Assembly (NCBI GenBank): GCA_001972305.1
Contig: BDDD01000549.1
Span: forward strand, 1-64,000
Length of the DNA: 64,000 nucleotides
From: Cephalotus follicularis
Taxonomy: Eukaryota > Streptophyta > Magnoliopsida > Oxalidales > Cephalotaceae
Reading direction: 5' to 3'
The first letter of the stretch is position 1. Each line of letters begins with the position of its first letter. Shown piece after piece: positions 2,157 through 27,999 of the stretch. The position numbers and the translations under genes are program-made. The notes below the pieces were generated by a model. It made no database searches. It was not told the DNA's origin and saw only the letters and a program-made list of their open reading frames with translations.

Positions 2157-2485
2157 TGCCCCCAGTGTATTTACCAAGTAATCACACTTCTAAGTACATA
2201 ATTGATTCAAAATTAACATCATCATGGTTTGGGAAAACATCATCAAATTCGGAAAAATCGGTCACTTTATTAATTTCACAAATAAGGTACGTTTACATTG
2301 TGAAATTACAATACATGAAAATTACGGCGTTACACTATCAATCTATCATTTTGATCTTTGAAAACCATTGAAAACTGTGTTTTAAAATGCTTGAATACCT
2401 CAAGTGAGGTTCCGGTCAAGCGGCAATGTGAAAAGTATTGAAAAATCAGCTTTAACAGTTAAAAGCTCCACTCAGCCCGAAAGGC

Positions 2486-2829
2486 GTCGATGTCCTTGGC
2501 CAAAGACGTCGACGTGTATCAGGGCATGTCTTTAAAAACGGCAGAAAGACGTCGATGTCCTTCAAAGACATCGATGTCCTTCAAAGACATCGATGTCTTT
2601 CTCAATTGGGCCAAAGACGTCGATGTCCTTGGACAAAGACGTCGACGCGTTTCAATGAAAATGGCCTGGGAATGCGCATCGATGTCTCGCGTCGAGGCCT
2701 TCTCAGAGGAAAGGCATCTCAAGCAAAAGTCGTCGACGCCTTTCAAAGTCGTCGATGTCTTTGCTGCGAAATCAAGGAGGCTGCATCCCAAAGTGAAAGA
2801 CATCGATGTCCATGGGCAAAGGGATCGAT
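2486..2829. repeat. Array of GCGTCGATG / GACATCGATGTC palindromic words
   Basis: Words centred on GTCGAC, GTCGAT or ATCGAT begin at about 2486, 2508, 2551, 2570, 2589, 2619, 2641, 2678, 2691, 2732, 2751, 2802 and 2824. Steps of 19-22 bp recur, with longer gaps near 30, 41-43 and 51. The copy at 2583-2600 is an 18-bp perfect palindrome (AAAGACATCGATGTCTTT). Relative to the 5' LTR copy there is one extra 19-bp unit around 2570. It lies in the transcribed part of the LTR, downstream of the TATA box on the minus strand. Confidence 0.88.
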
Positions 2830-3364
2830 GTCTTTGCTGGGAATGGCCGATTTTTCTGCAGAAAACCAGCAATTTTCAAGCCAAAATCCAATCAAATCCA
2901 TTCTTTAAGAAACCAAGGGTTAAAAATCATTCTTTAAGGTTAGTAAAACTAGTTACAACCTTCAATTTAACATTTCAATCTTTCTATTAACAATTAGGTC
3001 AAGGATTTACTTAAAAACCCCAATTTCACTCACTACATTCAATTCAGTCATTCAATCAGTCATTCAATCATGCAATTCAATCAATCAATCAATAAAGCAG
3101 TAGGCAATTCAGTAAAGAAGTCCTACCTATCACTGACGCTTCAAAAGTTAAGCTCCCAATCAATCGATCGGTAAAAATCACCCAATAATCTGCTACTTTC
3201 TTGTTCAATCGGTAAGCTGCCACTTGTAATCGGTGTCCTTGTTGAAGGAGCTGCAAATCCGGATGCAAGAGAGGAATATGGAGGCTCCAGCTAGAGAGAG
3301 AGGGGGAGAAGGATAGAGAGAGGGAGAAGAATGTGTGAAATGAGAGAGTGAGAGTGAGAATTGA

Positions 3365-3374
3365 CTTATATAGT
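3365..3374 (-). promoter_or_regulatory. TATA box, outer copy, gypsy1 3' LTR
   Basis: Minus-strand ACTATATAAG, followed downstream on that strand by a CT-rich stretch (TCTCACTCTCACTCTCTC). Same context as 13124-13133 in the 5' LTR. Confidence 0.6.
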
Positions 3375-3927
3375 CGATTCGGTCAATTCTCCGAAGCTCA
3401 GCTCAAAATCCCGACTATACATGCATAAAACCAATACGATCTTAATAGGCATAAGAATACCTCAATTCAATACAGTTCAGTACGGTCCAATACGGTACAA
3501 TGTATGCATGAACAGTTACAACCTTCAATTTAACATTTCAATCTTTCTATTAACAATTAGGTCAAGGATTTACTTAAAAACCCCAATTTCACTCACTACA
3601 TTCAATTCAATCATTCAATCAGTCATTCAATCATGCAATTCAATCAATCAATCAATAAAGCAGTAGGCAATTCAGTAAAGAAGTCCTACCTATCACTGAA
3701 GCTTCAAAAGTTGAGCTCACAATCAATCGATCGGTAGAAATCACCCAATAATCCGCTACTTTCTTGTTCAATCGGTAAGCCGCCACTTGTAATCGGTGTC
3801 CTTGTTGAAGGAGCTGCAAATCCGGCTGTAAGAGAGGAAGATGGAGGCTCCAGCTAGAGAGAGAGGGGGAGAAGGATAAAGAGAGGGAGAAGAATGTGTG
3901 AAATGAGAGAGTGAGAGTGAGAATTCA

Positions 3928-3937
3928 CTTATATAAT
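3928..3937 (-). promoter_or_regulatory. TATA box, second (duplicated) copy, gypsy1 3' LTR
   Basis: Minus-strand ATTATATAAG, 563 bp from the other copy and in the same CT-rich context. It exists because of the 562-bp duplication. Confidence 0.6.
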
Positions 3938-4104
3938 CAATTCGGTCAACTCTCCGAAACTCATCTCAAAATCCCGACTATACATGCATAAAACCAATAC
4001 GATCTCAATAGGCATAAGAATACCTCAATTCAATACAGTTCAGTACGGTCCAATACGGTACAATGTATGCATGAACAGTACAAAAGGGAATTTGGGTCGT
4101 CACA

Positions 4105-4169: not shown

Positions 4170-5340
4170 AAAGGATATGTCTCTCTCATATCGTCCTCGC
4201 ACTCCCAGGTGCGCTCCATAGGACCATGACACTGCCATAGAACACTGACCAAAGGGATGGTCTTGTTCCTCAATACTCTGATCTGTCAGTCAACAATCTG
4301 TATAGGAGTCTTCTGTAAACGATACGTCAGGTTCCAGCTGAATCTGACCATACTCAATGATGTGTGAAGGATCTCGAACATATCTCCTCAACTGAGAAGC
4401 ATGGAACACATCATGCACTCCCGACAATGCTGGGGGCAAGGCAAGCCTGTAAGCAAGTCGGCAAATCCGATCCAATACCTCGAAAGGTCCAATAAAACGA
4501 GGAGAAAGCTTTTCTTTCTTCCCGAATCTCATGACTCCTTTAGTGGGCGACACTTTGAGGAAAACATGGTCACCAACACTAAACTCCGAGCCTTTGTGAT
4601 GAACATCAGCATAGCTTTTCTGTCTACTCTGTGCAACAATCAATCAGTCTCTAATCAGTTTCCCTTTCTCAGCGGTAATTTGTACAATCTCTGGCCCCAA
4701 AGTACTCTTTTCACCGACCTGATCCCAACAAACTGGCGATTGGCACTTCCTACCATATAGGGCTTCAGAGTGAGCCATCTGTATGCTCTCGTGATAACTA
4801 TTGTTATATGAGAACTCAATCAAATGCAAGTAGTCATCCCAACCACCTCCAAAGTCGAGAACGCATGCACGAAGCATTTCCTCCAAAGTCTGATTGGTCC
4901 TTTCGGACAAACCATCTGTTTGGGGATGAAAAGCAGTGCTGAAACTCAATTCTGTACGCATAGCTACCTGTAACTTCCTCCAAAACCCGGAAGTGAAGCG
5001 AGAGTCTCGATCTGAAACAATGCTAACAAGAGCTCCATGTGCTTTAACAATCTATTTCTTGAACAATCTGGACAACTTTTCTCTAGAATAAGTCATCCAA
5101 ATCGGTAGAAAGTGGGCCGACTTCGTGAGTCGATCGACCATAACCCATATACCAACATGTTCGTCACGAGTCAGAGGCAACCCAGACACGAAATCCATGG
5201 TAATTTGCTCCCATTTCCACTCAGGAATGAGCAAAGGCTGAAGCAAGCCCGCCAGTCTCTGGTGCTCTGCCTTAACTTGCTAACAAGTGAGGCATCTCGA
5301 TACAAATTAGGTGATTTCTCTCTTCATGCCAATCCACCAA
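4170..5340 (-). pseudogene. Gypsy1 integrase and chromodomain-like tail, broken
   Basis: Read on the minus strand from about 5340. Integrase joins element cDNA to host DNA. The core shows MDFVSGLP, then VSDRDSRF, then HPQTDGLSERTNQTLEEML, so the D, D and E of the catalytic triad are visible. Stops interrupt the frame after LFKK (about 5052), after KLIRD (4644) and after EDSYTDC (4290). The C-terminal part has the GPFEVLDRI...YRLALPPALSGVHDVFHASQLRRYV segment typical of gypsy integrases. Beyond a stop come RNKTIPLVSVLW and ERTWECEDDMRETYPFL, a chromodomain-like tail seen in Tekay/Del elements. The N-terminal zinc-binding region is poorly preserved. It has no function in this state. Confidence 0.85.
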
Positions 5341-5649
5341 TAGCTAAGTTTTTGGTCACGATACATCTTCGTACTCCCTGGATGAACAGAGAGACGAGAT
5401 TTATGAGCTTGAAAAAAAAGCTCTTCCTTCAACTCGCTATCGGCTGGAATGCAAATTCTGTCCTGTATCTCAATAACCCATCTGTAGATAAAGAGAAATC
5501 GGGTTTCAATCTTTCATCAATAGCAGTAGCCACTTTATGTAATCCAATATCCACTATCCAACCCAAGGATAGCGTTCTTCTGTGTCAAACTGGTCAATGC
5601 TGTAGCAATACGGAAAGAACTCTCAACAAACCGACGATAATACCCTGCT

Positions 5650-6377
5650 AAACCCAAGAAGCTGCGAACTTCGGAAGCATTCGTCGGTCATTTCCAATCT
5701 TTCACTGCCTCTACTTTCGATGGATCCACTGATAAGCCGTCACCAGAAACAATATGCCCTAGTAAAGCAACCTCCGATAACCAAAACTCGCACTTGTCGA
5801 ATTTGGCATACAGTCGATGATCCCTCAAGGTTTGCAAAACAATGTAGAGGTGCTGGGCATGCTCCTCATCGGTCTTGGAATAGACCAAGAGGTCGTCAAT
5901 GAACACTACAATGAACTGATCCAAATACTGTCTGAACACTCGGTTCATCAGGTCCATGAAAGCCGCAGGAGCATTAGTCATACCAAAAGGCATAACTAAG
6001 AACTCATAATGCCCATATCTCGATCTGAAAGCCATCTTCGGAATATCCTCCGGTCTGACTTTCAGCTTGTGGTAGCCCGATCTCAAGTCGAGCTTAGAAA
6101 ACACTGTTGCTCCTCTAAGCTGATCAAACAGCTCATCAATGTGCGGTAGAGGGTACTTATTCTTCACTGTAAGTTTATTGAGCTGTCGGTAGTCAATACA
6201 CATATGGAACGATCCATCTTTCTTCTTGACAAAAAGAACAGGTGCTCCCCAGGGTGAAGCACTAGGTCTTAAAAAACCTTTGTCGAGAAGATTCTGTAAC
6301 TGTATCTTTAACTCTTTCAATTCTATCGGTGCCATACGGTATGGTGCTTGAGAAATCGGTGCAGTTCCTGGTATCAA
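5650..6377 (-). pseudogene. Gypsy1 reverse transcriptase; RNase H mostly deleted
   Basis: The reverse transcriptase starts near [16 protein letters not shown] (6377) and runs open to about 5688. Clear motifs are [52 protein letters not shown] and [10 protein letters not shown], the last holding the catalytic aspartates (FIDD instead of YVDD). After VKDWK the frame breaks. The sequence that follows (LLGLAGYYRRF, about 5650) runs only a short way and then jumps to pre-integrase sequence, so nearly all of RNase H is absent. Normally RNase H follows RT for over 100 residues. Loss by internal deletion is inferred. Confidence 0.88.
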
Positions 6378-7221
6378 TCAATTACAAACTCAATCTCTCT
6401 GTTTTGCGGCAACAACATCAAATCCCGAGGAAAAACATCTCCGAACTCGCAAACCACTGGAATATCCTCCTGTTTCGGCCGCCATCTGTCAGTGTCGAGC
6501 ACATGTGCCAGAAACCCCTGGCATCCCTGTCGTAACAATCTGTCCGCATGCAAAGCCGAAATCATCGGAACTAACAATGGCTCTAAGGTGCCAAGAAACC
6601 GAAAAGGTGGTCGTCCCGGAGGACTGAAAACCACTACTTTCCGATGACAATCCACCTGAGCAAAGGTAGCAGACAACCAATCCATGCCAAGAATCTTATC
6701 TAGGCAATCCATCGGTAAAACACTAAGATCGGCTAATAAGCAACGATCATCAATCTCAACAATACAATCTCTACACACTCGATCGGTGGTCGCTGACTCA
6801 CCTAGAGGTGTGGATACCTCCATCACAACATCGGACCCTTTTGTAGCACTCGGTTCCATAGCAAACACTCTAGCCTGAACTGTTGGAGCAGAACACATAG
6901 GCTGTTTCCCCCTGGACTGCGAAGTCCCACGGGAAGAAGACGGTACAATAGCTGACGGTCCCTGTGGGGGCGGTGCCCGCTGTGTTTGATCAAATCCTCT
7001 AGGACGAGAACTCCGAGGACAATCTTTACCAATGTTGTCGGAACCACCACAAACCAAGCAATGCCCAGGAACCATCTACAATTCTTAGAAGTATGGTTGG
7101 TCTTTTGACAATGCACACAAGGAACCGTAGCACTCTGATTACCGCTCCCAGAAAGCCTGGAGGGTGTACCCTGACTAGGTGCTGAAGATCGGTCTCCTCG
7201 ACGTGCATTCCTCGATCTACC
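6378..7221 (-). pseudogene. Gypsy1 gag C-terminus and protease, active-site segment missing
   Basis: On the minus strand, directly below the solo LTR, are two zinc-knuckle-like motifs in different frames: CVHCQKTNHTSKNC and CLVCGGSDNIGKDC (the expected His is Asn in the second). They are followed by a low-complexity linker and then protease-like sequence: STPLGESATTDRVCRDC, LDKILGMDWLSATFAQVDCH and EFGDVFPRDL. The segment that should hold the D-S/T-G active site between VFAMEPSATKGSDVV and STPLGE is absent, so the protease lacks its catalytic aspartate. The frame is open through this gap (6374-7075), which points to a clean in-frame deletion. Confidence 0.82.
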
Positions 7222-8204
7222 TGTAACACCCCCGATTCGGCGGGAGTCATTACGGGTTCATAATCCGAGACTAAGCAATACCTATCTTATAACATGGCTC
7301 AATTTTATTCCTTTTTATCAGATTATTAACTCATCTTTTATTCAAATTTGTGTGATGGTCTAAAACTTAATATTCAAAATCTAAAACATTGTCTAAGACT
7401 TTATTCATAATATGAAAACTTAAACATAATCTGGAAAGTTAAACATAAACCAAAAGTTTAAACATAATTCTAAGTCATAAACTGAAAGACATAATATAGT
7501 GTTCAAATTGGGGTCATAACATGACAAGAAAGTAACTAAACATAACCAGTTCCATCTCCTAAGTGATCCTTATCGTAGGTGACATCTCGCTCATCACACA
7601 TTGCCCGGATACTGTCCCAGAATACCTGCCGCATGGAAACAAAAACGCGGCTGAGCAAACCTCAGTACGGATATAGAATCATAAAACATAAAACGATAAT
7701 TTTAAAAGATAGAAAATACCTGAATCTTCAAAATATCATATACTTTATTCATAAAATAAATTAACATTATTTTCAAAAGAATGAAGGTAAGTAGTCATAC
7801 AATCAATTTAAAACGAATATCTAATTTTCAAAGCGTTATTCAATTTTAAAAACATAAGCTAAGTTTAAAATCCCAAAACATATTCAAAACGAAAAACAAA
7901 CAAACAGAGACTTATCCGATTCCGATATCTCATTACCGAGATCCAAATCGCATACACATATGCGAAGTTGCAAGGGGTCTGCAAGGCCCACATGCCAAAC
8001 GGAAAGACGTGTACGGCACTACACAATCAATCCCCAAAATCCGAATCCTTAACATATCAGATACTAGAGTATACCCATACGCCTCTATCACAAAATCGGA
8101 TCCATAAATCCACCTCATGGGATTTATTCAAAACATAGAGAGATGCCGTAGTCGCATCACACTACTACGAAAGTGTCACGTCCCCGTGCCAGGCCCACGA
8201 CGTG

Positions 8205-8223
8205 CCTATGGTACCTCCATAGG
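8205..8223. other. Short perfect hairpin in conserved LTR block
   Basis: CCTATGGTACCTCCATAGG folds as a 7-bp stem with a 5-base loop. The same block recurs in family A LTRs at 15925-15943, 33191-33209, 45021-45039 (opposite strand) and, in altered but still paired form, at 51191-51208. Upstream of it all copies carry a conserved GTGTCA(T/C)GTC..CCGTGCC segment. Confidence 0.7.
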
Positions 8224-8559
8224 TAGGAAATATCTCTGTGTATATCTTTATTTCAAAAACATGGTTTTATTTTTAAAATCAATTTAAAAACGTAAACACG
8301 TTTTATAAACATTTTCTGGACATAGCAAAATCATAACATAGCATCAACTCATTTTTTTTCCACTGTAAAGAGATGATCATTTCATAATATATCGTAACGT
8401 ATCTTAGCATAAAAAATATAATTAGGAACATTTAATTTCATAAAATGTCAAAAACCAATTTATTTACGTGACATATCATAAAAGATAATCAAGTCTACAA
8501 AACGAGATCATAGAATAAAACTGATTTTAGTTTGATAAACAGATAGCCAAGGAACGATA

Positions 8560-8870
8560 GAATTCCGTACATTATTTATAAAGTAAAACAGGACAGTTTC
8601 AATAAAATCAGATAACCGAAGAACGATAGAATCTGTACGTTATCTATAAAGTAAAACTATCTTTTTACTATAAAAACAGTAGGAGGGTGTCAAGGAACGA
8701 AACATCCGTACGTTAGTCATAAAATATAAAACAGAACTTATTCAGATAAAACCGAAGGAGATATCGAAGAACGAAAAATCCGTATGTTATTCATAAAGTA
8801 AAACTAATATTTTTACTCTAATAAAATCAATAGGAGCGCCAAAGAAAGAATGATCCGTACCTTAAGCGAT
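8560..8870 (-). repeat. Degenerate ~72-bp tandem repeats with TACGGA core
   Basis: The core CCGTACG or CCGTATG recurs at about 8566, 8635, 8709, 8780 and 8855, steps 69-75 bp. Each unit has GAACGA before the core, AAAGTAAAAC after it and an AATAAAATC-like stretch. The same unit occurs in the LTRs at 15085 and 32351, and on the opposite strand at about 44060-44700. Confidence 0.8.
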
Positions 8871-9075
8871 CACAATATAACTTTACGAATTGACCAACAA
8901 TTTAAAAGTCCTTCGAAGCACAAAAATCTAAAAGGTGCAATATCATTCATATAAGCATTCAAATATCACTTCCAAACATCAGCAGTAACTTAATGGTGTT
9001 TAAAACAGACTCCAAATCATTAGACAAACAAACGGATTACAAAACTTAAAACCAGAAAATTCCTTGACAATTCCA

Positions 9076-9276
9076 GTCGACTGTATCAAAATCCAGTCGA
9101 CTACTCAAAGGTGGCAGTCGACTGTGTGGCATAGGCAGCCGACTACTCATACTGGGTTGAATCCAGTCGACTGTGACAAGGGGTCCAGTCGACTGTGCAA
9201 GGCAACCGGTCGACTATTTTACAAAGCAGTCGACTACTCAAGGTCTAACAGTCGACAGTTTAGATGGACAGTCGAC
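9076..9276. repeat. Ten-copy ~21-bp phased CAGTCGACTG array
   Basis: GTCGAC (one GCCGAC) begins at 9076, 9096, 9117, 9138, 9166, 9188, 9209, 9229, 9251 and 9271. Steps are 20, 21, 21, 28, 22, 21, 20, 22 and 20 bp. Most copies extend to CAGTCGACTG or CAGTCGACTA. The spacers do not resemble one another, so the word and the spacing are conserved but not the sequence between. It lies downstream of the inferred promoter on the minus strand. Confidence 0.93.
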
Positions 9277-10335
9277 TGTTCTGCTCGACAGAACAGCAAA
9301 ATACAGCAGTTTTAATTCCAATTTTTTTGTTCAAACCGTTTTACTACATTACCAGATGATTTTAAACACTTATATAGGTCTTATGTGACTTAAACGTGGC
9401 ATTTAAACACCCAGAATAAAAAAGTTCATGCAATGGGTGATCTTTATTTAAAGAGAAGCAATATTCTAACTCATAGCATGCATAACTATTAATCAATTTC
9501 TGTCATATACCAATTTCTAATTTCAAAATCTGTTTATAACCATTACTAGACACTTCAAGGCTTGCTAAGAATCTCAGAAACATTAACCAAACATACATGG
9601 CAAGAATCAAAACTAAAACTCACTAGCAACCACATGAAATAGAATTGGATAACATTAAACTAATTTTAATTGTTAAACCATAATAACAGAGGAAGAACAA
9701 ACCTGGTATGATGATCAAAGGAGAACAAAACGAATTCTAATCTTGTAGGTTCGGGTCTTAGGCACAATGACACAATGGAGGCATAAAAAATGAATAATAA
9801 CATACAGATACAATATGGGAAAGGTAATTTAGGTCATGGTAATGCAGAAAAGGAATCCAAATCTGATATAATGTGGAAATAGGGCATAATTTCGGGATTG
9901 AGGGTGATAAAGAAGGAAAGAAATCAGTTTTGTGAGAGGAAGAAGGAAGAAAAATGGGAGAGAGAGGTAAGAAATAAGGAAATAAAAATTATTTTGCCAA
10001 AATACAATATTTGTTCCCTTTTAAAATCCTTTTTACCTTGTTTGTATAAAAACTAATTTTAATCACTTTAAAATACCAACAACAATTATTACCTATCTAT
10101 AATTACATTTTATCAATTATCCAAAAGCAATATAACTGGTATTATAAAGCCCAAAATAAAAGGATTTGTTTTACAATTAAAACAATTTACCACGTTAATA
10201 ATAAAAACCGATTTAATATTTATATGAAAAATAATTCAATTAATTTTACCTATTAATATACATATGCCAACACAACCAATAAATCAAATTTAAAATCCAA
10301 AATATGCACGTGAACGAACGGGGTATTACACTACC

Positions 10336-11185: not shown

Positions 11186-12258
11186 TACTGTAACACCCCG
11201 CGCCCGCAGGGCGGACACGTGGCATTACTCTCAATCCAATATACAATACAATGGTCGGGACTAGCAATATAAAAATAAAACAGAGCATACAAATAGGATC
11301 TATAACAATCAATCAATGGTAGACACTCAATGGTGGTGTATGAAACACCCAATCAATCAATCAATATCCTATAGAGCATGCTACCGGGTCAATACAATGT
11401 CAATCGGTTAGCGGAGATCAATCCCACGGAAGGTAGTCCTTCAAAAAGGGTGTGAGATCTATCTACGGTTCTCAGATTGATCAGGTCTGGGACTCATAGA
11501 TCTTCCAGCCTATGGCTGTGTCAATACAGTCTCGATGAGCTACAACCGAGGGAGCTACTGATACCGTTAGGGAGCTACGGCCTCAAGGGAGCATCAATCG
11601 ACAATCAATCGGTACCGCTCGTCAGCGGGTCAATACAATACAATAAATGAAATGATCGGCGGAATAGGTGGACAGAGTCAAAGACCTAACATGCCGACAC
11701 GAATCATAAGGTCGCTCTATAGGATCCATACAATACAATCAATCAATCAATCGAGTCAATACAGTTTTGGGTAAAGTCAATAAGTGGTGGTGTCTAATGG
11801 AGAAATGGGAACGTGCGTCCATCGTACTGACTTAGGCTCGCAACAACACTCACGACTCAAGCAATCGATCATTGTATCAATACAAAGTCGAAGCAAAACC
11901 GATAAGTGGTGGTGCCTAATGGAGGGATGGGAACGTGCATCCATTTTACCGACTTAGACTCAAAGTAACACCTATGACCCAAGAAAACAATCAATCAGTA
12001 CAATCAGTAGCCGCTAGGCGGTGACAATCGAATCGACAGAATAGGAATGAACATCTATTTGGTCGATGAAAGTCACTGAGTCATCACCTATGGCTCAAGC
12101 TGTCACTCTATCAATCTATCATTTCGATCTTTGAAAACCATTGAAAACTGTGTTTTAAAACGCTTGAATACCTTAAGTGAGGTTCCAGTCAAGCGGCAAT
12201 GTGAAAAGGGTTGAAAAATCAGCTTTAACAGTTAAAAGCTCCACTCAGCCCGAAAGGC

Positions 12259-12583
12259 GTCGATGTCCTTGGCCAAAGACGTCGATGCGTATCAGGGCAT
12301 GTCTTTAAAAACGGTAGAAAGACGTCGATGTCCTTCAAAGACATCGATGTCTTTCTCAATTGGGCCGAAGACGTCGATGTCCTTAGACAAAGACGTCGAC
12401 GCGTTTCAATGAAAATGGCCTGGGAATGCGCATCGATGTCTCGCGTCGACGCCTTCTTAGAGGAAAGGCATCTCAAGCAAAAGACGTCGATGCCTTTCAA
12501 AGGCGTCGATGTCTTTGCTGCGAAATCAAGGAGGCTGTATCGCAAAGCGAAAGACATCGATGTCCATGGGCAAAGGGATCGAT
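12259..12583. repeat. Array of GCGTCGATG / GACATCGATGTC palindromic words
   Basis: Words begin at about 12259, 12281, 12324, 12343, 12373, 12395, 12432, 12445, 12486, 12505, 12556 and 12578. Steps include 22, 43, 19, 30, 22, 41, 19, 51 and 22. It is the 5' LTR partner of 2486-2829 and also has the 18-bp palindrome AAAGACATCGATGTCTTT (12337-12354). It lies about 540-870 bp downstream of the TATA box, in the region expected to be transcribed. Confidence 0.88.
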
Positions 12584-13123
12584 GTCTTTGCTGGGAATGG
12601 CCGATTTTTCTGCATAAAACCAGCAATTTTCAAGCCAAAATCCAATCAAAATCATTCTTTAAGAAACCAAGGGTTAAAAATCATTCTTTAAGGTTAGTAA
12701 AACTAGTGACAACCTTGAATTTAACATTTCAATCTTTCTATTAACAATTAGGTCAAGGATTTACTTAAAAACCCTAAAAACCCCAATTTCACTCACTACA
12801 TTCAATTCAATCATTCAATCAGTCATTCAATCATGCAATTCAATCAATCAATAAAGCAGTAGGCAATTCAGTAAAGAAGTCCTACCTATCACTGAAGCTT
12901 CAAAAGTTGAGCTCCCAATCAATCGATCGGTAGAAATCACCCAATAATCCGCTACTTTCTTGTTCAATCGGTAAGCCGCCACTTGTAATCGGTGTCCTTG
13001 TTGAAGGAGCTGCAAATCCGGCTGCAAGAGAGGAAGATGGAGGCTCCAACTAGAGAGAGAGGGGGAGAAGGATAGAGAGAGGGAGAAGAATGTGTGAAAT
13101 GAGAGAGTGAGAGTGAGAATTGA

Positions 13124-13133
13124 CTTATATAGT
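13124..13133 (-). promoter_or_regulatory. TATA box, gypsy1 5' LTR
   Basis: Minus-strand ACTATATAAG with a CT-rich stretch downstream. By position it drives the element transcript towards gag. Inferred from sequence only. Confidence 0.65.
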
Positions 13134-13375
13134 CGATTCGGTCAACTTTTCAAAACTCAGCTCAAAATCTCGACTATACATGCATAAAACCAATACGATC
13201 TCAATAGGCATAAGAATACCACAATTCAATACAGTTCAGTACGATCCAATACGGTACAATGTATGCATGAACAATACAAAAGGGAATTCGGGTCGTCACA
13301 GATCATCACCTAGTTGTGCGCCTGAGCTCTCTTTAGAGTGAGCATGCGTCCTGTTGCATGAGATCTAGTATAGTG

Positions 13376-15084: not shown

Positions 15085-16580
15085 TGTAACACCCCTACAG
15101 GGATCGGGATGTTACACTAAACTAACTTACAAAAATCATATCAAACTGAACTTATTCTTTATTCAAAGCATCAAATCAATAATCCGAAACATCACCATAA
15201 ATTCAAATCCATAAATAACATTCAGATCAAAACTAAATCTCGAAGTCTCCAAATGACCAATAATCAACTGAAATAATAATGTTTAATTGCTAACTAATCC
15301 ATTGATATTCGGGTGGAACACTCATCACACTTGCCGTTCATGCCCCTGATAACCCGCCGCATAGAAAGAAAAACACGGCTGAGCAAACTTCGGTACGGAT
15401 ATGGAATAGTAAAACAATTTACGAACAAAAGTAATACGTACAATTTACGAAAGCGAAACAATTGATAAAACTGAAAAGCGGCACATTAAAAAAGGTTTTC
15501 AAAGTCAAATATATACATATAGGTTCACAAACCTTCATAAAATAGATATTAGTTTTCATTCATATCAAATTCTAAACTTTTCCAAACTAATGTTTCATAC
15601 TGAGATTCATACATATAACAAATCCCACGTACGTACCAAGCCATCGGGTAGTAACGTACCGGTACATACTAATATATACATATGCAAGGGATTCCCGGGG
15701 ATCCACATGCCTAATGGAATGATGTGTACGACACTACACAATCAATTCCCCAAACTTATCAAAACTTATATGCTAGGGCCGACCCATACGCCTCTATCAA
15801 ACAAATATCACACTCAGGTGATAATCAAAATCGGATCCAAATCCTCCACTGGATATCAAAGAGAGACATCGTAGACTAATCACACTGCCACGGATAGTGT
15901 CATGTCTCCGTGCCAGACGACATGCCTATGGTACCCCCATAGGTGGTTATATTCTCAGTATTTCAACAATTTCAAAAAATGATTTCGCAAAATCATTTCA
16001 AACACGTAGGGTTTCCAACATAAATCAAGTTTCTCAAATCTTAAAATCGTTATCAAACGATAATAATTTATCAATAGCATTTATATACTTCCTCAGAAAT
16101 CATACATACATACTGAATCTTGCAAAACAGTTAAGAGAGCTGACAATAAATAAAATTCATATTTTATTAATAAAAAGAAAAACTGAATTTATTCCCATAA
16201 AATCAGCAGAAGATAATCAAAGAATGAAGATATCCATACTTTATTCATAACAGTAAGATTGAATTTTTACTCTAATAAAATCACGAAGGATAGAATCAAG
16301 GATGAAAATATCCGTACTTTATTCATACAAAGGTAAAACTGAATTTATTCTAATAAAACCAAAGGAAGATAATCCAAAAACGAAGACATACATACCTTAT
16401 GCAATCACCGAAAGTGACCTCAAAAGCAGATCGATAAATCCCTATATCGCACCTCGGTTGTTATAATTATCTAAAAGAAACCATATGATCCTTATAATGA
16501 CTTAAAACGATCGGTGTCATCAAATCAAAAAATTAATGGCATTTAAAATCAGGTCCCGACTCATTAAAACAAGCCTGCTA

Positions 16581-16764
16581 GTTGGCTGGAACAGGGAACC
16601 AGTCGACTGTGCGCTGCATAACAGTTGACTGCCCAAGTTCTGGAATTACACACCTACTAGTCGACTGTGCACGGTATAGAAGCCGACTACTCAAAGTATA
16701 ACTACGATTTTAAAGGCTTTTTTTTTCCTTCAGTACAGTCGACTGTCTAAGGAAAGCAGCCGAC
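16581..16764. repeat. CAGTCGACTG word array in gypsy2 3' LTR
   Basis: GTCGAC or variants begin at about 16581 (GTTGGC), 16602, 16624 (GTTGAC), 16660, 16682 (GCCGAC), 16738 and 16759. Steps are 21, 22, 36, 22, 56 and 21. The partner LTR has the matching array at 59190-59316 with many TCGA to TCAA changes. Confidence 0.8.
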
Positions 16765-17044
16765 TGTCCTGCTCAAGCTCAACACTGGTGCCTAATGATG
16801 CCTATAGAATTTCAGTTTGGCATCAAGACATCTTAACCAATAAACAATAACCAAATTAAAATCATCCAGGTGTTGCCCGAAATTCTCTAGACATACTAAG
16901 AATCAAGAGATTATGCAGATTATTTAGACTTAAGGAAAGGGACGGAAATTGAACCTCTAACTATATAATCTGTTTAAATTCAAATTATCAACCACCAGAT
17001 ACTGAAACCAGATTAAACAACAGATACTTAAGCGACTAAGCAAA

Positions 17045-19528
17045 TGTCGGGTATGCGTGGCCCACGCGTAGTGGAAGACTTATCAATCCGGACATTAGGG
17101 ATTAGGGCTAATTAACTTTAATTTTTCACAAATTGATTAATCCCCAAGAAATGGGATGCCCTAATCTATTTTCGAATTGTCCAAATAAATTCCAAGGAAC
17201 TCTAATCAACATTAAATTAAACCAAAACAAAAAAACCAAACATAAGGAAATCGGGATTCCAATAGGGTTGTCGTAAATCCTAACAAATGGGCACACACAT
17301 AGACTCACAAGGCAGACACACAATACCCTAGCCTAATGCCCGAGAAACCCAATTCCACACATCCCTAACCCTAAAGGATATAAAGCAAGCACCAACAAAA
17401 CCCATGGAGGTTCGGCAAGTGTTTTACCAAAACTCTAACCAATACCCACTGCAATGGTGCCATAGACAGAGAAGAAGAAAAGGTTCTTACCAGAGGTGAA
17501 GACTCCTTCATTCAACATAAGCTCCCTCTCCACTTGAATCCAAGAACTCCAAGCTCCTCCAAGCCAATCCTGAAACCACGAAAGAGGAAGATGAATCCCA
17601 AGTGTTTAACCTAGACTAAATAACTCTAGGTAAAGATAAAGAGCAGTGTGCAAGTTATCTCCACCTATTATGAACTTTGAGTGGTGAAAGGAGGCTTGAA
17701 AATGGCTGTAATTCGCACCAGACGACGTAGGCGTCAAAGAGTTGGCGATAGGCATTGACGCGTATGCAAGCACGAAGAAGTGATAGCACGCCAGGGAAGA
17801 GAGAGAAAGAGGAAGTCTCAAGTGTGTTCAACAAGCTTCTCTCAAGCCTTATATAGTCTTGACTTCTCTTACCTACTGTAGTGCGCATCAACATGTTTAG
17901 GCATCAATGCCATGCGTCTCATATTATCTAGGCGTCAACACCACGGATAAGATGAAACGGGCACCGAGTCCATTTATCTTCGCGTTGACGCGTAAAACCC
18001 ATTGCATCAACGCGCATACCTACTGGTTTTTAAATCATCAATGCCATCCTCTCCATAGCGTTAACGCCCAGTGGCTTTCTCTAGTATGGCGTCAACGTGT
18101 AGCCCTAATGGCGTCAACGTGCAAAGCTACTGGTTTTTCCAGTGTTAACGCAATCCCTTCGCGTCAACACCCACTAACTTCAACTAGAGATGGCGTCAAC
18201 GCATACTTTCCATGACGTCGAAGCCCAAGACAAAAAGACAATCTCTTCTCATTTTCAAAAGCCTTCGCATGGAATATTTCATCATGGCATTGCATCGACC
18301 TAAATCCATCAAATGAAATACTCACTAGCCAAGCAACATCTTTCGATGTTGTCCTTTCACTAAATGATATGTGTACCGCCACATATCAACCTGTTCAAAG
18401 TCAGGCAGGACCCGAAAGCTTGTCGATCTTCGGTATGATGATAAATTCCCAGAACATCCCGATATCTGGTACGACCACTCTAATAGTACATCAACTATCA
18501 GAGCAGCCCCAGTGTGAGGGCCAGTCACCCCCCCTGATCCGTGTATTACCACGTCTATCAATCATGGTCTGAATATCCAGTCGCTCTATTCAGTCATCGG
18601 CAAATGTGTCATGATTCCCTCGTCATACTTGGCTCCGATCACAGCCTAGGGTTTAGATGAATGTCACCCATAGTATTGCTACGACAGCTATGAATCTATG
18701 ATCGCACTGAGATTATCGGTAGGCCTCCCATAGGAACCTCTCATTCCCAGTCCACCTATGCCTGATTAGAACTTTTAAGTCTGCAACGTACATAGATAAA
18801 TAGAGCCAGTCACCCTCAGCCCGGGTCTGATGATCCCCTATTGCGCACACACCCATATATCTCAATTTAGCTCCCACAAGACCCAAAGACAACCCTTTTG
18901 CCAGAACTTGGCTAGTGCTGGGGAAGGAAAAAATCAAAAACAAGCAGTCACCACACAATGCATGCCAGCCGCTCAGGTCAAAGGAGACAACGCAGGCTAT
19001 AGACCTACTGGTCAGCATAGACTACACACTACCGAGACCATAGGAATCCTATTGACATTGGGTAATTACTATCCAAATAGGTTTCCTATTGGTGGGTATG
19101 TTCAGTGTCAAGCACTCTAGAATACACGTCACATTTAGCGTTAGGGGTAAACCCAATTGGCTACGAGATAACCAATCTCCACAGCTAACCCGGGAACATG
19201 CTTAACATGACAAGTCTTCATGGTTCATCAATGGCCCAAAGAAAGTGAACCTATGACTTGGAACATTTGTCATAGGGAATAAGGATCTCATTCCCATAGC
19301 CCTCTCGACAAAAGATCCAACCCTTTGGTGTGACAGGGCACTATATGACGTATAGTTACTTACGTATAATTATTCTGTTCCTTTTGGATGGTTGGGATGA
19401 GCCATATAGCCTTGCCAATATATAAAGATGCGCATAGAATATAAAAGGAATTCATAATTGTATTAATCAAGAGTGTTTATATACAAATGACCCATATCGT
19501 GGCATACAGGGACACCCCTAACCTAATA
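17045..19528 (-). mobile_element. Copia1 3' LTR
   Basis: Minus-strand LTR that starts near TTAGGTTAGGGGTGTCC and ends CCCGACA. A short purine-rich stretch (GTCAGAGA) precedes it on the minus strand. TATA-like ACTATATAAGG on the minus strand lies at 17847-17857. A GGCGTCAACGCC-type word array spans about 17715-18215, on both sides of the TATA. Confidence 0.92.
17715..18215. repeat. GCGTCAACGC-type word array, copia1 3' LTR
   Basis: Many copies of GGCGTCAACGCC and variants (GGCATTGACGCG, GCGTTGACGCG, GCGTCAACGTG). Most have TCAA or TTGA where other arrays have TCGA, as expected from CpG deamination of GGCGTCGACGCC. The bulk lies directly upstream of the TATA on the minus strand, with a few copies downstream. 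Confidence 0.82.
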
Positions 19529-19586
19529 ATCTCTGACTTGGCCCTATAGCCACAACGACCGATAGCCTAAGCCCATAGCACTCTGA

Positions 19587-20195
19587 TGTCTCTATAGAAC
19601 AGTGCTGCTCTAGGCATTGGTCAGTGGGTCGGCTAAATTTTCCTCCGTGGCAACTCTCTCAAGGGTAATGTCTCCTCTATCGATGTTCTCTCTAATCAGG
19701 TGATTCCGTCGCTGTATGTGCTTGGAGTGATGATGAGACAGGGGTTCTTTGGCTTGTGCAGCAGCCCCATTGTTGTCACAGTATACCACAACTAGACGTG
19801 CAATGGTTGGAACCACATCAAGTTCAACAAGAAAATTTTGCATCCAAACAGCTTCCTTGGTGGCATCTGAGGTTGCAACATATTCCGCTTCCATTGTGGA
19901 GTCAGCAGCAGTCTCCTGCTCAGAACTCCTCTAGCTCACAGTACCTCCATTCATGATAAAAACATATCTTGAAATGGATTTGTGATCATCTGGATCACTA
20001 TTGAAACTAGAATATGTAAAGCCCTCTAATTTCAATTCACTATCTCGTATATAGACCAAGAAGGTATCTTGAGTCCTTCTCAGGTATTTGAGTTCCCCCT
20101 TGACTACCTCCCAATGTTTCTCACCAGGATCAGACTGAAATTGACTAGCCATACCCAGGCATAGGCAACATCAGGTCTAGTACACAGCATGGAAT
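19587..20195 (-). pseudogene. Copia1 RNase H region, broken
   Basis: RNase H degrades the RNA strand during reverse transcription. Minus-strand reading gives ASQFQSDPGEKHW, LKYLRRTQDTFLVY, FTYSSFNSDPDDHKS, then a stop after NGGTVS, then MEAEYVATSDATKEAVWM, VYCDNNGAAAQAKEP, KHIQRRNHLIRE and ENLADPLT. These are the standard copia RNase H blocks. At least three stops interrupt it. Confidence 0.88.
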
Positions 20196-20199
20196 ACAT

Positions 20200-21145
20200 G
20201 ATGGAACCAACAGCTAAAGCATATGGCTGCCTACTAGTGCAAATCCTCTCCTCATTTCTCTGTGGAGACATTGTCTTGGAGAGGTGAATTCCCTGGCAAT
20301 CAGAAGAAGGCCGCGCTTCGAATTCTCAAGGCCATAATGTTTCAGCACCTTGCTAATGTACTTGCTTTGGGAGAGTCCCAACAACCTATTAGATCTATCT
20401 CTATAGATCTTTATACCCAATATATAGGATGCCTCTCCCAAATCCTTCATGGAGAAGTTCTTGGATAACCATACTTTAACGGACTGCAACATACCCATAC
20501 CATTCCCTATGATTAGTATGTCATCCACGTATAGTACCATGAACGTGATATTCGCGCCATCCTGTTTCCACTAGACACAAGGCTCATCCACGTTTTTGAT
20601 AAAACCAAAAGTCTTAACGGTCTCGTCAATACGGATGTTCCAGCTACGGGATGCTTGCTTAAGGCTGTACATCTATCTTTGGAGCTTACACACTCTCCGT
20701 GGATGCTCCATGGATGTAAACCCCTCGGGTTGGGACATGTAAATATCGTCATCAAGAAAGCCATTCAGGAAGGCGGTCTTGACATCCATTTGCCATATCT
20801 CATAATCATAATGAGCGGCAATAGCAAGCAATATCCGAATGGACTTAAGCATAGCGACTGGTGAGAAAGTTTCGGTATAGTCGACTCCGTGTCTTTGCCT
20901 ATACCCTTTCGTGACCAATTGCGCTTTGTAAGTCTCTATCTTACCATCAACGCCAATCTTCCTCTTGAAGATCCATTTGCAACCAATAGGCTTAACACCC
21001 TCAGGTTCATCAACGAAGTTCCATACTTGGTTGGTGTCCATGGAGTCCATCTTGGATTTCATGGCCTCTAGCCATGCCCCGGATTCAGTGCTCTTCACTG
21101 CCTCCTCGTAGCTGACAAGCTCTTCATCATCGATGTCGTTGAGTT
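20200..21145 (-). pseudogene. Copia1 reverse transcriptase, broken
   Basis: Starts near YEEAVKSTESGAWLEAMKS and runs through VWNFVDEPEGVKPIGCKWIF, ETFSPVAMLKSIRILLAIAA, WQMDVKTAFLNGFL, YMSQPEGF and, after a stop at about 20673, LVLYVDDILIIGN-type sequence (MVLYVDDILIIGN). The YVDD catalytic motif is intact. Further stops follow DEPCV. A frame change occurs near LLIAREFTSPRQ. Residues are closest in my recollection to the Angela lineage of plant copia elements, which is an inference. Confidence 0.9.
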
Positions 21146-21149
21146 CCTC

Positions 21150-22300
21150 AGTGTCCTAATTGAGAAAGCCATATCTCTTAGGAGGTACTGGAACTCTGCA
21201 TGATCTCCTCGCTAGAGGAGCGCCTAACTGAGATCCACTCTCAGGTTGGGAACCTTCACCAACTATGTCTGTAGAGGGTTGAGCCTCTAATTCCTCCTCA
21301 TCTTGTGGGCTTTCACCAGGTGATAACTCTCTCTGTTCCACCTTGCTCCCATTGCTCCCTGTAAGCAGGTATTCCTTCTCTAGGAATTTGGCAGTAAGGG
21401 ATAAAAAAACCTTTTGATCGGTGGGATGGTAAAAGAAGTATCCTTTGTTCTCCTTAGAGTACCCCACAAATTGGCAACGATCTGCTCCCGCCTCCAGCTT
21501 TGAAGAATCCGCCCTTCTTACATAAGCTGGACAGCCCCAAACCCTCAAATAGTTTAGGCTGGGTTTCCTCCCTTTGTACACCTCATACGGAGTGGAGGGG
21601 ACAGATTTTGAAGGAATCCGGTTTAGGATGTACACCGCCGCGTGCAATGCATAACCCCAGAATGATATAGGAAGATCCGCGAAAGACATCATGGACCAGA
21701 CCATGTTCATCAAAGTCCGATTCCTCCGCTTGGACAGACCATTATGATGTGGTGTTCCTGGAGGTGTCCACTGAGAGAGAATTCTGTTATCCCTCAGATA
21801 ATCCAGGAATTCAGTAGATAGGTATTCGTCACCTTAATCCGACCGGAGGATCTTAATGGGTTTACCCATTTGCTTTTTTACTTCTAGTCTGAATTCTTTG
21901 AACCTCTCAAGGTCCTCAGACTTGTGTTTCATTAGAAACACATAACCATACAGTGACAAGTCATCGGTAAAGATGATGAAGTACGGAAAATCTCCACTAG
22001 CATTGACCGACATAGGTCCGCAAATGTCGGTGTGGACAAGAGCCAATATGTCCATAGCCCTTTCTCCTACGCCGGAGAAGGGAGATTTTATCATCTTGCC
22101 AATAAGACATGGCTCACACTTTGGAAATGACTCCACGTCCTGAATGTCTAAAAGACCATCTTTAACCAAGCGTGTTAGTCTACCCAGACTAAAATGACCT
22201 AATCTAAAATGCCATTTATATGAAGGGTTTACATCGTTTATCTCTCGTTGTCCTTTAGTGCTTGTTCCTGTTTGAATTGTTAAAGCCATTTATGCATTTA
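21150..22300 (-). pseudogene. Copia1 integrase, catalytic Glu replaced by Lys
   Basis: GAG-pre-integrase region WHFRLGHFSLGRLTRLVKDG and CEPCLIGKM, then VHTDICGPM, FTDDLSLYGYVFL, a stop directly after ILRSD (about 21834), then TPPGTPHHNGLSKRRNRT, MSFADLPISFWGYALH and RKPSLNYLRVWGCPAYV. The catalytic triad should be D, D, E. Here the third residue reads K (NGLSKRRN), while copia2 has NGVSERRN. The loss plus the stop makes it inactive. Confidence 0.88.
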
Positions 22301-22474
22301 TATTTAAAACATAAATCCAATTGTCAATGTGTCCATCACATAAAAGAACATTGTTTTGCATAAGTCTACAACCATATGTAGAAAAAATGAGCTCCAAGCC
22401 CATCTGATACAAATAAGAAACAGATACAACGTTTCTAACAAGGTTCTTACCAAAGTGGCAAGGATCAAGTTAAA

Positions 22475-22735
22475 TTACCTGGCCATTACAAAAGAAAATT
22501 CAAAAACGCCTATTATCGTGGTGTGAATCCTAGATCCATCACCTATACGCATGTCCAAAGCTTCAGCCTCTCTCAGCTCTTTAGCACCTCTTAGCCCCTG
22601 CAAAGAGTTCCAAATATTAGTTCCACAACCTAAATCAAAAACCCAAGTTGAACTAGTATTAGCAGCTAGAAAAAGCTCAATCATGAAAGTACCTGACCCT
22701 GAGACACCTCCTGACTTGGACATTTGGAACTCACT
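22475..22735 (-). pseudogene. Copia1 protease, active site altered
   Basis: Minus-strand reading MIELFLAANTSSTWVFDLGCGTNI. Copia proteases normally have D-T/S-G followed by C/A; here the motif is D-L-G. The frame ends shortly after FSFVMAR. Copia2 shows a different change at the same site (D-S-C), so the two copies lost the site independently. Confidence 0.82.
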
Positions 22736-23595
22736 ACACCGTGATCTCCAATGTTTGTGCTTCCCACAATAGAAGCAGCAGTCATCATCCTGCAGTTGTC
22801 AGATTGTATCTAGGACTGATCCCCCAACCACTGGCCCCGTCGGCGCAGCTAGTCTCTTCCCTTTCTTCTTCTTCCCTTTAGGTTTCATGGGCGCCTTGCC
22901 CTTGGACGTGGATCCTCTCGATCTGCTCCCTCTTGGAGCTTTCCGGGAAAAAGTAGATGGAATATACAACACATCATACTTGGACCTCCCATGGCCCATG
23001 TTGTCTTCAGCCCTACGAAGCATTTCCATAAGTTCAGGCAGATTAGTATCCACCTTGTTCATGTGGAAATTTGTGATGAACTGGGAGTATGACCTACGGA
23101 GGGATGAAAGAACCAGGTCAATGTTGAAATCGTTGTCCATGGTAAGATCTAACTGAGCCAGCTACTCAATAAGATCAATGATCTTTAATCCATGTGCGTG
23201 GACTGAAGATCCCTTGGCCATCTTCATGCAGAATAGCTAACGGGACAAGTTAAACCACTCGGTCCTCGACCGGGATCCATATAACTCCTGAAGACGAAGA
23301 AGTATAGCTCCTAGGGTATCAAGCTTCTCGTGCTGTCTTTGCAATTTCGGGACCATACCCGAAATCGCTAAGCAATGAGCTTCCTCGTCCTCATCTAACC
23401 ATTTGGCCCTCTTGGCCTTTTGCTCTTCTGACGGGTTGGCTCCCAGTTTGGGGGGGGGGGGGGTCTCTCAGTCATGACATGAGCAAGATTCATGCTCATG
23501 AGTGCCAAGCACAGGTTGCGCTGCCAATCCAAGAAATGTGGACCCAAGAGGTTGTTCGTTTCAAGAACGCACGATAGTGCTATGCCAACTGACAT
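22736..23595 (-). pseudogene. Copia1 gag with zinc knuckle, frameshifted at a poly-G run
   Basis: Gag begins at about 23595 with ALSCVLETNNLLGPHFLDW, the usual start of copia gag. A run of 12 or more G (about 23450-23462), coding Pro on the minus strand, is followed by a frame change, after which SEEQKAKRAKWLDEDEEAHC, a stop in SRLFCMKMA-type sequence and MDNDFNIDLVLSSLRRSYSQF, LPELMEMLRRAED can be read. A Lys-rich stretch precedes the zinc knuckle CFYCGKHKHWRSRC (CX2CX4HX4C) near 22745-22785. Confidence 0.85.
23449..23463 (+). repeat. Poly-G run in copia1 gag
   Basis: A run of about a dozen G. On the coding strand it is poly-C within a Pro-rich stretch (RPPPPPN). A slippage site, and the likely cause of the gag frame change here. 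Confidence 0.85.
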
Positions 23596-24933
23596 GGTTG
23601 CGAAATATGGTGAACTAGCAACCTATAAAAGAGGAAACATGAGAGAGATCATTAGCAAATTATTCCAATTATATTATTACCATAACACTTGGTCTTCTGT
23701 AATTATGGTTCCTCCCACTATTCTAATCGTATCCTACAACCCCATGTGGAATTCGGGAAGCCTCTCGCTTCATAGTGGGGATCGGAATCTATCTACAATA
23801 CTATAGTCCCGATTGTGGTTGTGCAAACCATAATATCTGAATAGGTAGGTATGAATACAAATTTACATCAGGACCTCTCGCCCATATGTAAGATCCGATA
23901 CTATATTCGGCCTCCAGGCCCTTATGGTCTCTGTTGTGGCATGACGGTAACCATAAGATCCTGGTATCAAAGAAATAGATCCGTTTTGACACCCACACGC
24001 TGTGGCCTGTCAGAGTATCAAAACATGATCATTTCCTTCCAGTGTACCTCACACTGAAATTGAATAGAAAATTGTTATATATGGGACCTTAGTTGTGGCT
24101 GGTGCCATCCCCAATATATCCACACCATTCAACGATGATTGTGGAAGGCCAACGATAGGGCAGCCATATGCCCCACCGCTTATGGACTTATTATTTGCAA
24201 GTTGGAGGGATTTTGTCTCATCAATTTTACAAATTACCAAAAGCCGTTTTAGATTAATTTTAATCTTCCAATCCATTTGGACAGCTTAAAATGCTTGGAC
24301 GTGTTTGGATTGTTACAGAAAAACATCCATCTCATGCATCTTAAAAGTGGCCTGACTTGGGACATAAGCTATAAGTGATCATGCAAGCCAACGTGACCAC
24401 TAGGTCTCCTAGGTGAACAAATTTAATGAACTCTATTACAATTGCTACCACGCATACATGGACTTCAACTGGTCTTGCAATCTTCTTGATCTTCTCTTCA
24501 AACTTCATTGATCTCATTTATTCAATTTACAGCCATATGTACAATTAAAAGAAAAGAAATACAATTGAGGGAGAAGAGAATTCTACTCTAAGGAAAAAGA
24601 ACAAAAAAAAGAAACACGACACACGCAGACAACCTTATTACAGACCGATTGAATTCCATTATTGTAACAAAGAAATTAAATCAAGCACACAGAGAAAACA
24701 CAAAGCTAGGTGCAGTCCTAAACCTTACAGCATGCATAAGAAATTCAAAAATATAACTGATATATAATTGAATACAGACGAAACAATCCGGCATTCCATG
24801 GTTCATCGATTTCATTAGTGCGACCAAAAAGCTACTCCCAATAAGTGTAGGGCTACACAACATCGGCCAAGACACATATGCAACCAACAATACACAAAAC
24901 ATCAAATTGAGGTCTAATTGTAGTTGATTAACA
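23596..24933 (-). other. Copia1 leader between PBS and gag, no gene
   Basis: About 1.3 kb of untranslated leader. Its first part matches copia2 at about 36140-37100 on the opposite strand (for example CAATTTCAGTGTGAGGTAC). I see no coding sequence in it; the short ORFs here overlap on both strands. Confidence 0.6.
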
Positions 24934-24946
24934 CTTTCTGATACCA
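24934..24946 (-). other. Copia1 primer-binding site
   Basis: Minus-strand TGGTATCAGAAAG, two bases from the LTR end. It matches the initiator Met tRNA type, and shows the LTR at 24949 is the 5' LTR. Confidence 0.88.
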
Positions 24947-25619
24947 CTTTTCGGGTATGCGTGGCCCACGCGCAGCGGAAGACTTATCAATCCAGACAGT
25001 AGGTATTAGGGCTGATTAACTTTAATTTTCCACAAATAGATTAATCCCCAAGCAATGGGATGCCCTAATCTATGTTGGAATTGTCCCAATAAATGCCAAG
25101 GAACTCTAATCAACATTCAATTAAACCGAAACAAAAAATCCAAGCATAAGGAAATCGAAATTCCAATAGGGTTGCTGTAAACCCTAACAAACAGGCACAC
25201 ACATAGACTCACAAGGCAAACACACAATACCCTAGCCTAATGCCCAAGAAACTGAATTCCACACATCCCTAACCCTAAAGGATATAAAGCAAGCACCAAC
25301 AAAACCATGGAGGTTCGGCAAGGGTTTTACAAAAACCCTAACCAAAACCCACTGCCATGGCGCCATAGAGGGAGAAGAAAAAAAGGTTCTTACCGAAAGT
25401 GAAGACTCCTTCCTTCAAGATAAGCTCCCTCTGCACTTGAATCCAAGAACTCCAAGATCCTCCAAGCAAATCCTCAAACCACGAATAAGGAAGATGAAGT
25501 CCAAGTGTTTAACCTAGTCTAAATCACTCTAGGTAAAGATAAAGAGCAGTGTGCAAGTTATCTCCACCTATTATGAACTTCGAGTGGTGAAATGAGGCTT
25601 GAAAATGGCTGCAATTCGC

Positions 25620-27784: not shown

Positions 27785-27796
27785 CTTTTATATAAG
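27785..27796 (-). promoter_or_regulatory. TATA box, gypsy2 3' LTR
   Basis: Minus-strand CTTATATAAAAG. The partner LTR has the similar stretch at 59941-59952. The downstream side on the minus strand has a CT-rich tract. Confidence 0.55.
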
Positions 27797-27999
27797 AAAA
27801 TAAATTTAAAAAGAGTTGTTTTATTTATAAATTTACACTTACAAACAAATATCCAACGGTCCAATGCTAAAAAAATCAAAATAGCCGAACCAAAACCAAT
27901 TCAAAAATGGGCAGTCCACATACCAAAATAAATAGGCATCCTGCATAAAATAGATTAAAAAGGTCCAAAATTTTATGCACGAAAAAATGAGGTATTACA

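Follow-up and report, generated by a model that had tools for sequence, protein, structure and literature searches.

Palindromic words with a common GTCGAC core are repeated in arrays within the long terminal repeats (LTRs) of retrotransposons of two superfamilies, Ty3/gypsy and Ty1/copia, in a 64,000-nucleotide stretch of the Cephalotus follicularis genome (GCA_001972305.1, contig BDDD01000549.1, positions 1 to 64,000; hereafter the window, a single stretch of one genome to which all counts are confined), and the length of these arrays changes mostly by whole units. On balance, we consider that the dyad-symmetric sites of each array probably make up a cis-regulatory cluster in the LTR, the Ty3/gypsy counterpart of the RM boxes of Sireviruses, with a sequence-specific dyad-binding factor as the best reading. 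Selection on the words is indicated, while selection on the distance between them is not.

Palindromic words are arrayed in LTRs beyond chance

The array highlighted in the initial annotation is located at 9074-9278 in a solo LTR of 3.1 kb (Z, 7222-10330, minus strand), which, as read from the sequence, has the sense ends TGTAATACC...GGTGTTACA, is bordered by a 5-bp target duplication (CTACC) and is inserted in the gypsy element W1. Ten sites of a word, here named A (CAGTCGACTG), start at 9074, 9094, 9115, 9136, 9164, 9186, 9207, 9227, 9249 and 9269, half of them exact and the other five with one or two mismatches. The steps originally given for these words (20, 21, 21, 28, 22, 21, 20, 22 and 20 bp) were confirmed exactly, corresponding to a pitch of 20-22 bp with one step of 28 bp. 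A second word, B (about AAGGCGTCGACGCCTT), has the GTCGAC core in common with word A, the core being flanked by CA/TG or GC/GC; its arrays are found in other LTRs of the Ty3/gypsy type as well as in one Ty1/copia family.

Counting of CAGTCGACTG in the window revealed 15 occurrences against 0.03 expected from dinucleotides, while matches with at most two mismatches numbered 54 against 17 ± 4 in shuffles. With TA runs set aside, TCGA is the centre of 32 of the 94 perfect 10-bp palindromes, while each other centre accounts for at most eight. In an unbiased scan, for which all 256 palindromic 8-mers were ranked per LTR and compared with the best of 100 shuffles, AGTCGACT came first in all five word-A LTRs and CGTCGACG in seven of the nine word-B LTRs, ranking second in the 5' LTR of the copia insertion Yi (behind CGTTAACG) and falling out of the top ranks in LTR T; the word exceeded the best shuffle in 13 LTRs (five with word A, eight with word B). 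The steps were equally far from random: across the seven word-A arrays (words with at most two mismatches), 26 of 39 steps measured 19-22 bp, compared with 4.5 ± 1.9 when the same number of words was placed randomly in the same spans (5000 draws, maximum 12). Dinucleotide expectation, shuffles, random placement, palindrome counts and the 8-mer scan thus ruled out a chance origin of the arrays.

The seven word-A arrays are distributed over LTRs Z, U1, V, Xi and Xii. LTR U1, which begins before the window start and ends at 2333, carries two (927-1195 and 2008-2158, the latter 176-326 bp from the LTR 5' end), as does the solo LTR V (39685-42459, target duplication CTCTC) at 40981-41093 and 42158-42285 (the latter 175-302 bp from the LTR 5' end). 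The other two lie in the LTRs of a presumed single gypsy element, X, at 16579-16766 in Xi (15085-16872 plus 27433-28005, the inferred 3' LTR) and, more decayed, at 59188-59416 in Xii (32345-33628 plus 58977-60155, the inferred 5' LTR). Copia family Y has inserted in both LTRs of this element (15085-28005; 32345-60155), in opposite orientations.

Word-B arrays were found in element W1 at 2483-2832 of its 3' LTR (2329-4104; the word here is about GACGTCGATGTC) and at 12256-12586 of its 5' LTR (11189-13300), in LTR W2 at 38780-39045 with a further pair of words at 39247-39277, and in LTR U2 (47924-50484) at 49212-49407, the same place as word A in the homologous U1, and at 50193-50292 (193-292 bp from the LTR 5' end). 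The copia insertions bear them at 17732-18225 (Yi, 3' LTR), 25635-26132 (Yi, 5' LTR), 35007-35450 (Yii, 5' LTR) and 57796-58140 (Yii, 3' LTR), and a weak group in LTR T (53055-53206) was not significant in the unbiased scan. Word copies per LTR amount to 10 in Z, about 15 in U1, 12 in V and 11-12 in each W1 LTR. According to Pfam matches, the word-B bearers include gypsy W1 (RVT_1), U2 (RVP_2 beside the LTR) and copia Y (RVT_2). For W1, the pieces at 4293-7075 (minus strand; RVP_2, RVT_1 and a Tf2-1-type SH3) give the superfamily of this word-B bearer. Its domain order on the minus strand (Retrotrans_gag, RVP_2, RVT_1, SH3_Tf2-1), together with a primer-binding site for tRNA-Met (TGGTATCAGAG) and a polypurine tract (PPT)-like sequence (AGGAGGGGAGAA), marks W1 by its annotated features as a Ty3/gypsy LTR retrotransposon; the piece between reverse transcriptase and SH3 (4647-5051) had no Pfam match, and the integrase core itself was unmatched.

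Words are kept while spacers drift

Alignment of 44 word-A sites from six arrays, a pool that left out the decayed Xii array (word identity 0.68) and still counted a chance overlap at 1179 in U1, revealed word columns of 62-95% identity against 24-38% in the flanks at fixed columns, with a flank identity per array of 0.29-0.39. The proposal that the word rather than the spacer is kept was thereby borne out. Pooled word-B sites showed a raised stretch about 16 bp wide, with flanks near background. The related statement that the spacers do not match each other held at fixed columns and had to be softened for gapped alignments, which showed weak residual similarity by beating letter-shuffled spacers in all five word-A arrays covered (U1b and Xii were left out), with 3, 0, 7, 1 and 4 of 300 shuffles reaching the observed score. 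Because gapped alignments score above shuffles, the spacers look like much-diverged copies, and the arrays as a whole look like old tandem repeats in which the spacers drifted and the words did not.

Comparison of the two LTRs of one element revealed word and spacer differences of 16/70 and 13/117 for X, 6/132 and 7/177 for W1, 30/156 and 37/417 for Yi, and 17/137 and 33/365 for Yii; words are unprotected in such dead copies. A possible exception concerns CG sites of the W1 LTRs, where only 4 of 27 in words differed, compared with 3 of 5 in spacers and 3 of 7 elsewhere, numbers that are small. Between the two copia insertions, the ratio of fixed to within-insertion differences was 13:41 for words and 46:53 for spacers (P = 0.009), so that differences fixed before insertion were rarer in words than in spacers, and the spacers changed faster than the rest of the LTR by the same measure (P = 0.003). 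We regard this comparison as modest evidence for selection on the words, the contrast along the arrays being the stronger.

The regular pitch does not call for selection on distance

The initial annotation had interpreted the steps as a selected word grid, with sites for a dimeric DNA-binding protein on one helix face or a link to 21-nt small RNAs. Phasing of 10.5 bp was absent from the 25 steps that measure 24-60 bp, with the two words taken together (R = 0.17, P = 0.57). Neutral drift was simulated with a protected word and a drifting 11-bp spacer, with units equally related and without the 27-28 bp class, at the indel/substitution ratio of 0.036 obtained from LTR pairs outside the arrays (21 gaps for 584 substitutions). 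With spacer identity at 0.29-0.37, the simulation placed 27.7-29.5 of 33 steps in the range of 20-22 bp, compared with 28 observed in a set that leaves out steps above 31 bp and misses one 21-bp U1 step (29 of 34 with that step). The sets used for phasing, drift and co-variation contained one LTR per family, leaving out Xii, W1a and three of the four Y LTRs, and excluded chance cores at 1179 (U1) and 38795 (W2). A simulation at assumed, higher indel rates, in which the spread was wider than seen and which had favoured distance selection, was replaced by the one at the measured rate.

Between LTRs of one element, indels of at least 4 bp within arrays measured 21, 21, 19 and 16 bp (1495 bp compared; three of four match the pitch), while eight occurred in 7048 bp outside the arrays, three of them alignment ends. 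As in-array indels are mostly pitch-sized, gain and loss of whole units can set the pitch. The missing phasing, together with a tight pitch explained without selection, ruled out the helix-face grid, while a dyad-binding factor, close to the originally proposed dimeric protein, is the preferred interpretation. The small-RNA link is not supported either, since steps of 19-22, 28 and 36 bp would lose register, and a coding heptad was ruled out because the steps do not keep to multiples of 3. The 21-base regularity seems to be a legacy of an old tandem repeat and not the object of separate selection, which calls for caution in general: regular motif spacing in decayed tandem repeats need not imply selection on spacing.

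Homologous LTRs carry different words at the same places

LTRs U1 and U2 are homologous over U1 187-909 (69.5% identity, E 1e-61) and in further blocks at 79% and 75%, with the homology reaching near the array edge; a global alignment was set aside as identity evidence because shuffled sequence reached 73-74% with the same scoring. In both, the distance between the LTR 5' end and the main array is 1.1-1.4 kb, and the second arrays lie at 176-326 bp (U1) and 193-292 bp (U2), those of U1, U2 and V being nearly equidistant from that end. Word-A matches with at most two mismatches are present in U1 and absent from U2, and word-B matches are present in U2 and absent from U1. Judged by these matches, the two homologous LTRs have arrays at the same two places, with word A in one and word B in the other.

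As gypsy and copia elements have word B in common, a host factor is the most likely binder, and one common host factor is the simplest reading of this sharing, while exchange between LTRs is possible. A broader and rather doubtful idea is that plants may hold a set of related dimeric DNA-binding proteins, each recognising the GTCGAC core with flanks of its own, and that LTRs of both superfamilies in one genome each built arrays and swapped them as a whole between word classes when their partner changed, which would give transposon control a shared, switchable 'address'. Should the arrays hold genome-wide, the presence of both word classes at homologous positions would make it possible to ask whether transposon sites and a host or transposon factor have evolved together, and would open a route to that factor.

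Position relative to the TATA box and a possible mode of action

In the 5' LTR of copia Yi, most words stand upstream of a TATA box assigned by consensus only (CTATATAAGG, near 25759, minus strand), the closest upstream word at about 45 bp, and two (25635 and 25656) lie downstream. In gypsy W1 and X, the distance from the LTR 5' end to the best-looking TATA candidate is 169 and 206 bp, the scan of Xii having covered its right-hand piece alone, where further candidates are present. As the W1 and X arrays are situated some 530-880 bp beyond these candidates, they are probably part of the transcribed leader. For the second arrays of U1, U2 and V, which keep within 175-326 bp of the LTR 5' end, a place upstream of TATA is possible.

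How the words work is inferred throughout. A putative dimeric sequence-specific protein, most likely a host factor, would bind the words and drive or de-repress LTR transcription, and LTR families would keep the words because transposition is more frequent for copies in which they are intact. Additional units would arise from slippage or exchange between neighbouring words, resulting in the pitch of about 21 bp, and the switch between A and B would follow a changed binding partner or a changed specificity of that partner.

Several observations weigh against this regulatory interpretation. The gypsy main arrays seem to be downstream, not upstream, of the likely TATA. The palindrome scan found no word in LTR T or LTR Q; one of five non-LTR controls exceeded its shuffles (X internal region, CGTCGACG four times, z 6.9 v 6.0), and other palindromes did so as well, namely TA runs, word variants, AGCCGGCT in U1, AAGTACTT in W2 and TGCATGCA in W1a. 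Spacers of Z scored −2.50 within the array, no better than against the related Xi spacers (−2.09). In the copia comparison, the fixed:within ratio of words did not differ significantly from that of the rest of the LTR (148:339, P = 0.43), and raw divergence between the insertions reached 19-24% for words and 24-25% for spacers, compared with 17-18% for the remaining LTR sequence, with word columns that were picked by similarity and hence biased toward low divergence. Moreover, the ratio of observed to expected CpG outside words was 0.47-0.49 in U1, V and Yi3, 0.83 in X and 0.94 in Z; as CpG is hardly depleted in Z and X, the argument that CG-bearing words should decay fast is weak for these two.

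Comparison with known repeat systems

The initial annotation knew of no described LTR system of this kind. Sirevirus RM boxes, however, are arrays of palindromic words with at least eight copies per element and divergent flanks in the LTRs of 13 Sireviruses (Bousios et al. 2010, PMC2829016), and dyad palindromes in at least eight copies per element are likewise present in the LTRs of Z, U1, V and W1. In the parts of that paper compared, RM boxes form CpG islands upstream of the TATA box and are termed Sirevirus-specific within the Ty1/copia set; the Vitis RM box is given as CGGTCGACCG, only two transitions apart from word A, and that of Tnd-1 as ACAATCGATTGT, also without CGG-CCG (PMC2829016). 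The arrays in the window are similar to RM boxes, as described there, in their clustered CG-bearing palindrome copies, their divergent flanks, a palindrome that varies by family and, for copia Y, the position of most words shortly upstream of a TATA box judged by consensus. They differ in their bearers, Ty3/gypsy LTRs as well as a copia family without the Sirevirus PPT octamer, and in their core, GTCGAC instead of the RM signature CGG-CCG, which the present words do not have. The pitch and the word swap at homologous positions are features found here and not in the compared parts of PMC2829016.

For the PPT, the same source describes AGGGGGAG at 10 bp upstream of the 3' LTR with more copies in the linker (PMC2829016). 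A search for the exact octamer found none in the 5424 bp Yi internal region or the 4156 bp joined Yii internal region, both from degenerate elements. The 5' LTR/PBS (primer-binding site) junction of Sireviruses is quoted as CA/ATTGG (or AGTGG)/TATCAGAGC (PMC2829016). That of copia Y reads about A/AGTGG/TATCAGA and is compatible with the AGTGG variant. This variant also occurs in other copia lineages. With Ty3/gypsy LTRs as bearers, no CGG-CCG core and no PPT octamer in Y, the arrays are not strict RM members. We therefore describe them as resembling RM boxes in anatomy, with LTR arrays of putative dyad binding sites whose words are specific to the family. If they prove genome-wide, palindromic motif arrays would not be a Sirevirus-only feature but a recurrent design of plant LTRs in both superfamilies.

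Palindrome clusters with strong predicted secondary structure also occur in the LTRs of maize Sireviruses, where they attract small RNAs (Bousios et al. 2016, as cited in PMC10760457); those hotspots rest on small-RNA data, the present arrays on sequence. The targets of VANC proteins in Arabidopsis VANDAL elements are, in the portions consulted, short motifs arrayed in tandem in non-coding transposon DNA that differ between related elements (PMC5735166, PMC10398659), and a difference in the target array can go along with one in the protein that binds it (PMC5735166). The present arrays share this organisation and variation among related families, whereas VANDALs are DNA transposons, the quoted motifs (YAGTATTAY, AGTTGTCC) are not palindromes and the protein is transposon-encoded. 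Arabidopsis short interrupted repeat cassettes similarly consist of short direct repeats with diverse DNA between them (PMC10342631), but are tied to miniature inverted-repeat transposable elements, not to LTR regulatory regions, and the abstract mentions no palindromic word. Such arrays in gypsy LTRs were not found described in titles and abstract starts among the matches listed from the open-access literature, a coverage far from complete, and a search with the exact words returned, judged by title among the matches listed, unrelated fields only.

Alternative explanations

An unlikely alternative is that the arrays act mainly as RNA, with hairpins of transcribed palindromes feeding small-RNA silencing as proposed for the maize Sirevirus palindromes. 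Folding of the Z array is strong (z −7.5 for the sense strand, −5.2 for the antisense strand), which says little on its role because any palindrome array would be expected to fold so. Symmetric word pairs showed no significant excess of complementary combinations over shuffled columns (45 A and 47 B words; lowest P 0.139), barely varying pairs being uninformative, and departures from pairing in sense RNA were more often broken pairs (A.C 70) than wobble pairs (G.U 42; sums), the opposite of what sense-RNA pairing would favour, with the bias reversed on the antisense strand. The missing co-variation and the A.C excess weaken RNA pairing as a selected property and speak against the earlier suggestion of RNA self-pairing sites; furthermore, silencing-target status alone would not conserve a word. 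Genomic RNA dimerisation or packaging through the palindromes is very improbable: the W1 and X arrays seem to lie in the transcribed leader, as judged by TATA consensus, but the second arrays of U1, U2 and V are possibly upstream of the start site, and the words again lack compensatory change. As a separate observation, T for C in the right half is commoner than A for G in the left half in word-B arrays, read on the plus strand.

We consider it quite improbable that a VANC-type anti-silencing protein encoded by the transposons binds the words, with the word switch reflecting co-evolution of protein and target. VANC targets, according to the consulted parts of PMC5735166, are tandem short motifs of non-coding regions that differ among related elements, the U1/U2 switch has the same form, and active sunflower Tekay elements encode an additional open reading frame (PMC12844716, seen in part). 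Word B is, however, common to gypsy and copia, and no extra long frame was noticed beside the ordinary gag/pol Pfam frames of W1, where no systematic search for extra frames was made; the test is a weak one, with Z and V being solo LTRs and X and Y degenerate. A plain decayed minisatellite of 19-22 bp, with the words as a chance remainder, is improbable to a similar degree. The residual spacer similarity, the pitch-sized indels and a pitch spread that fits neutral drift are all in line with it, while the identity of word columns far above that of spacers, the recurrence of the same GTCGAC-centred word in LTRs of two superfamilies and the predominance of TCGA among palindrome centres argue against it.

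Further observations

Two word-A cores also occur in contigs of a viral collection (29 loci), none of which matched the window by tblastx at E 1e-6. One of them, IMGVR_UViG_3300021560_000070 (IMG/VR; L006:300-900), contains many GTAGTCGACTAC-like words at steps such as 18, 28, 37, 19 and 29 bp, a similar palindrome in an unrelated array. Word-B-like sites outside LTRs were observed in the internal region of element X at 30136-30260 (AACGTCGACATT- and GCGGCGACGCTT-like forms). Diverged repeats adjoin arrays in related LTRs at 16158-16400 (period about 78 bp), 8537-8890 and 44034-44354; LTR Q has these array-adjoining repeats too, yet without a significant palindrome word. LTR W1a carries a tandem duplication at 2951-4083 (about 570 bp, 96.7% identical) that is missing from W1b, and a 38-bp tandem repeat of 3.7 copies with 86% matches is located at 63745-63887.
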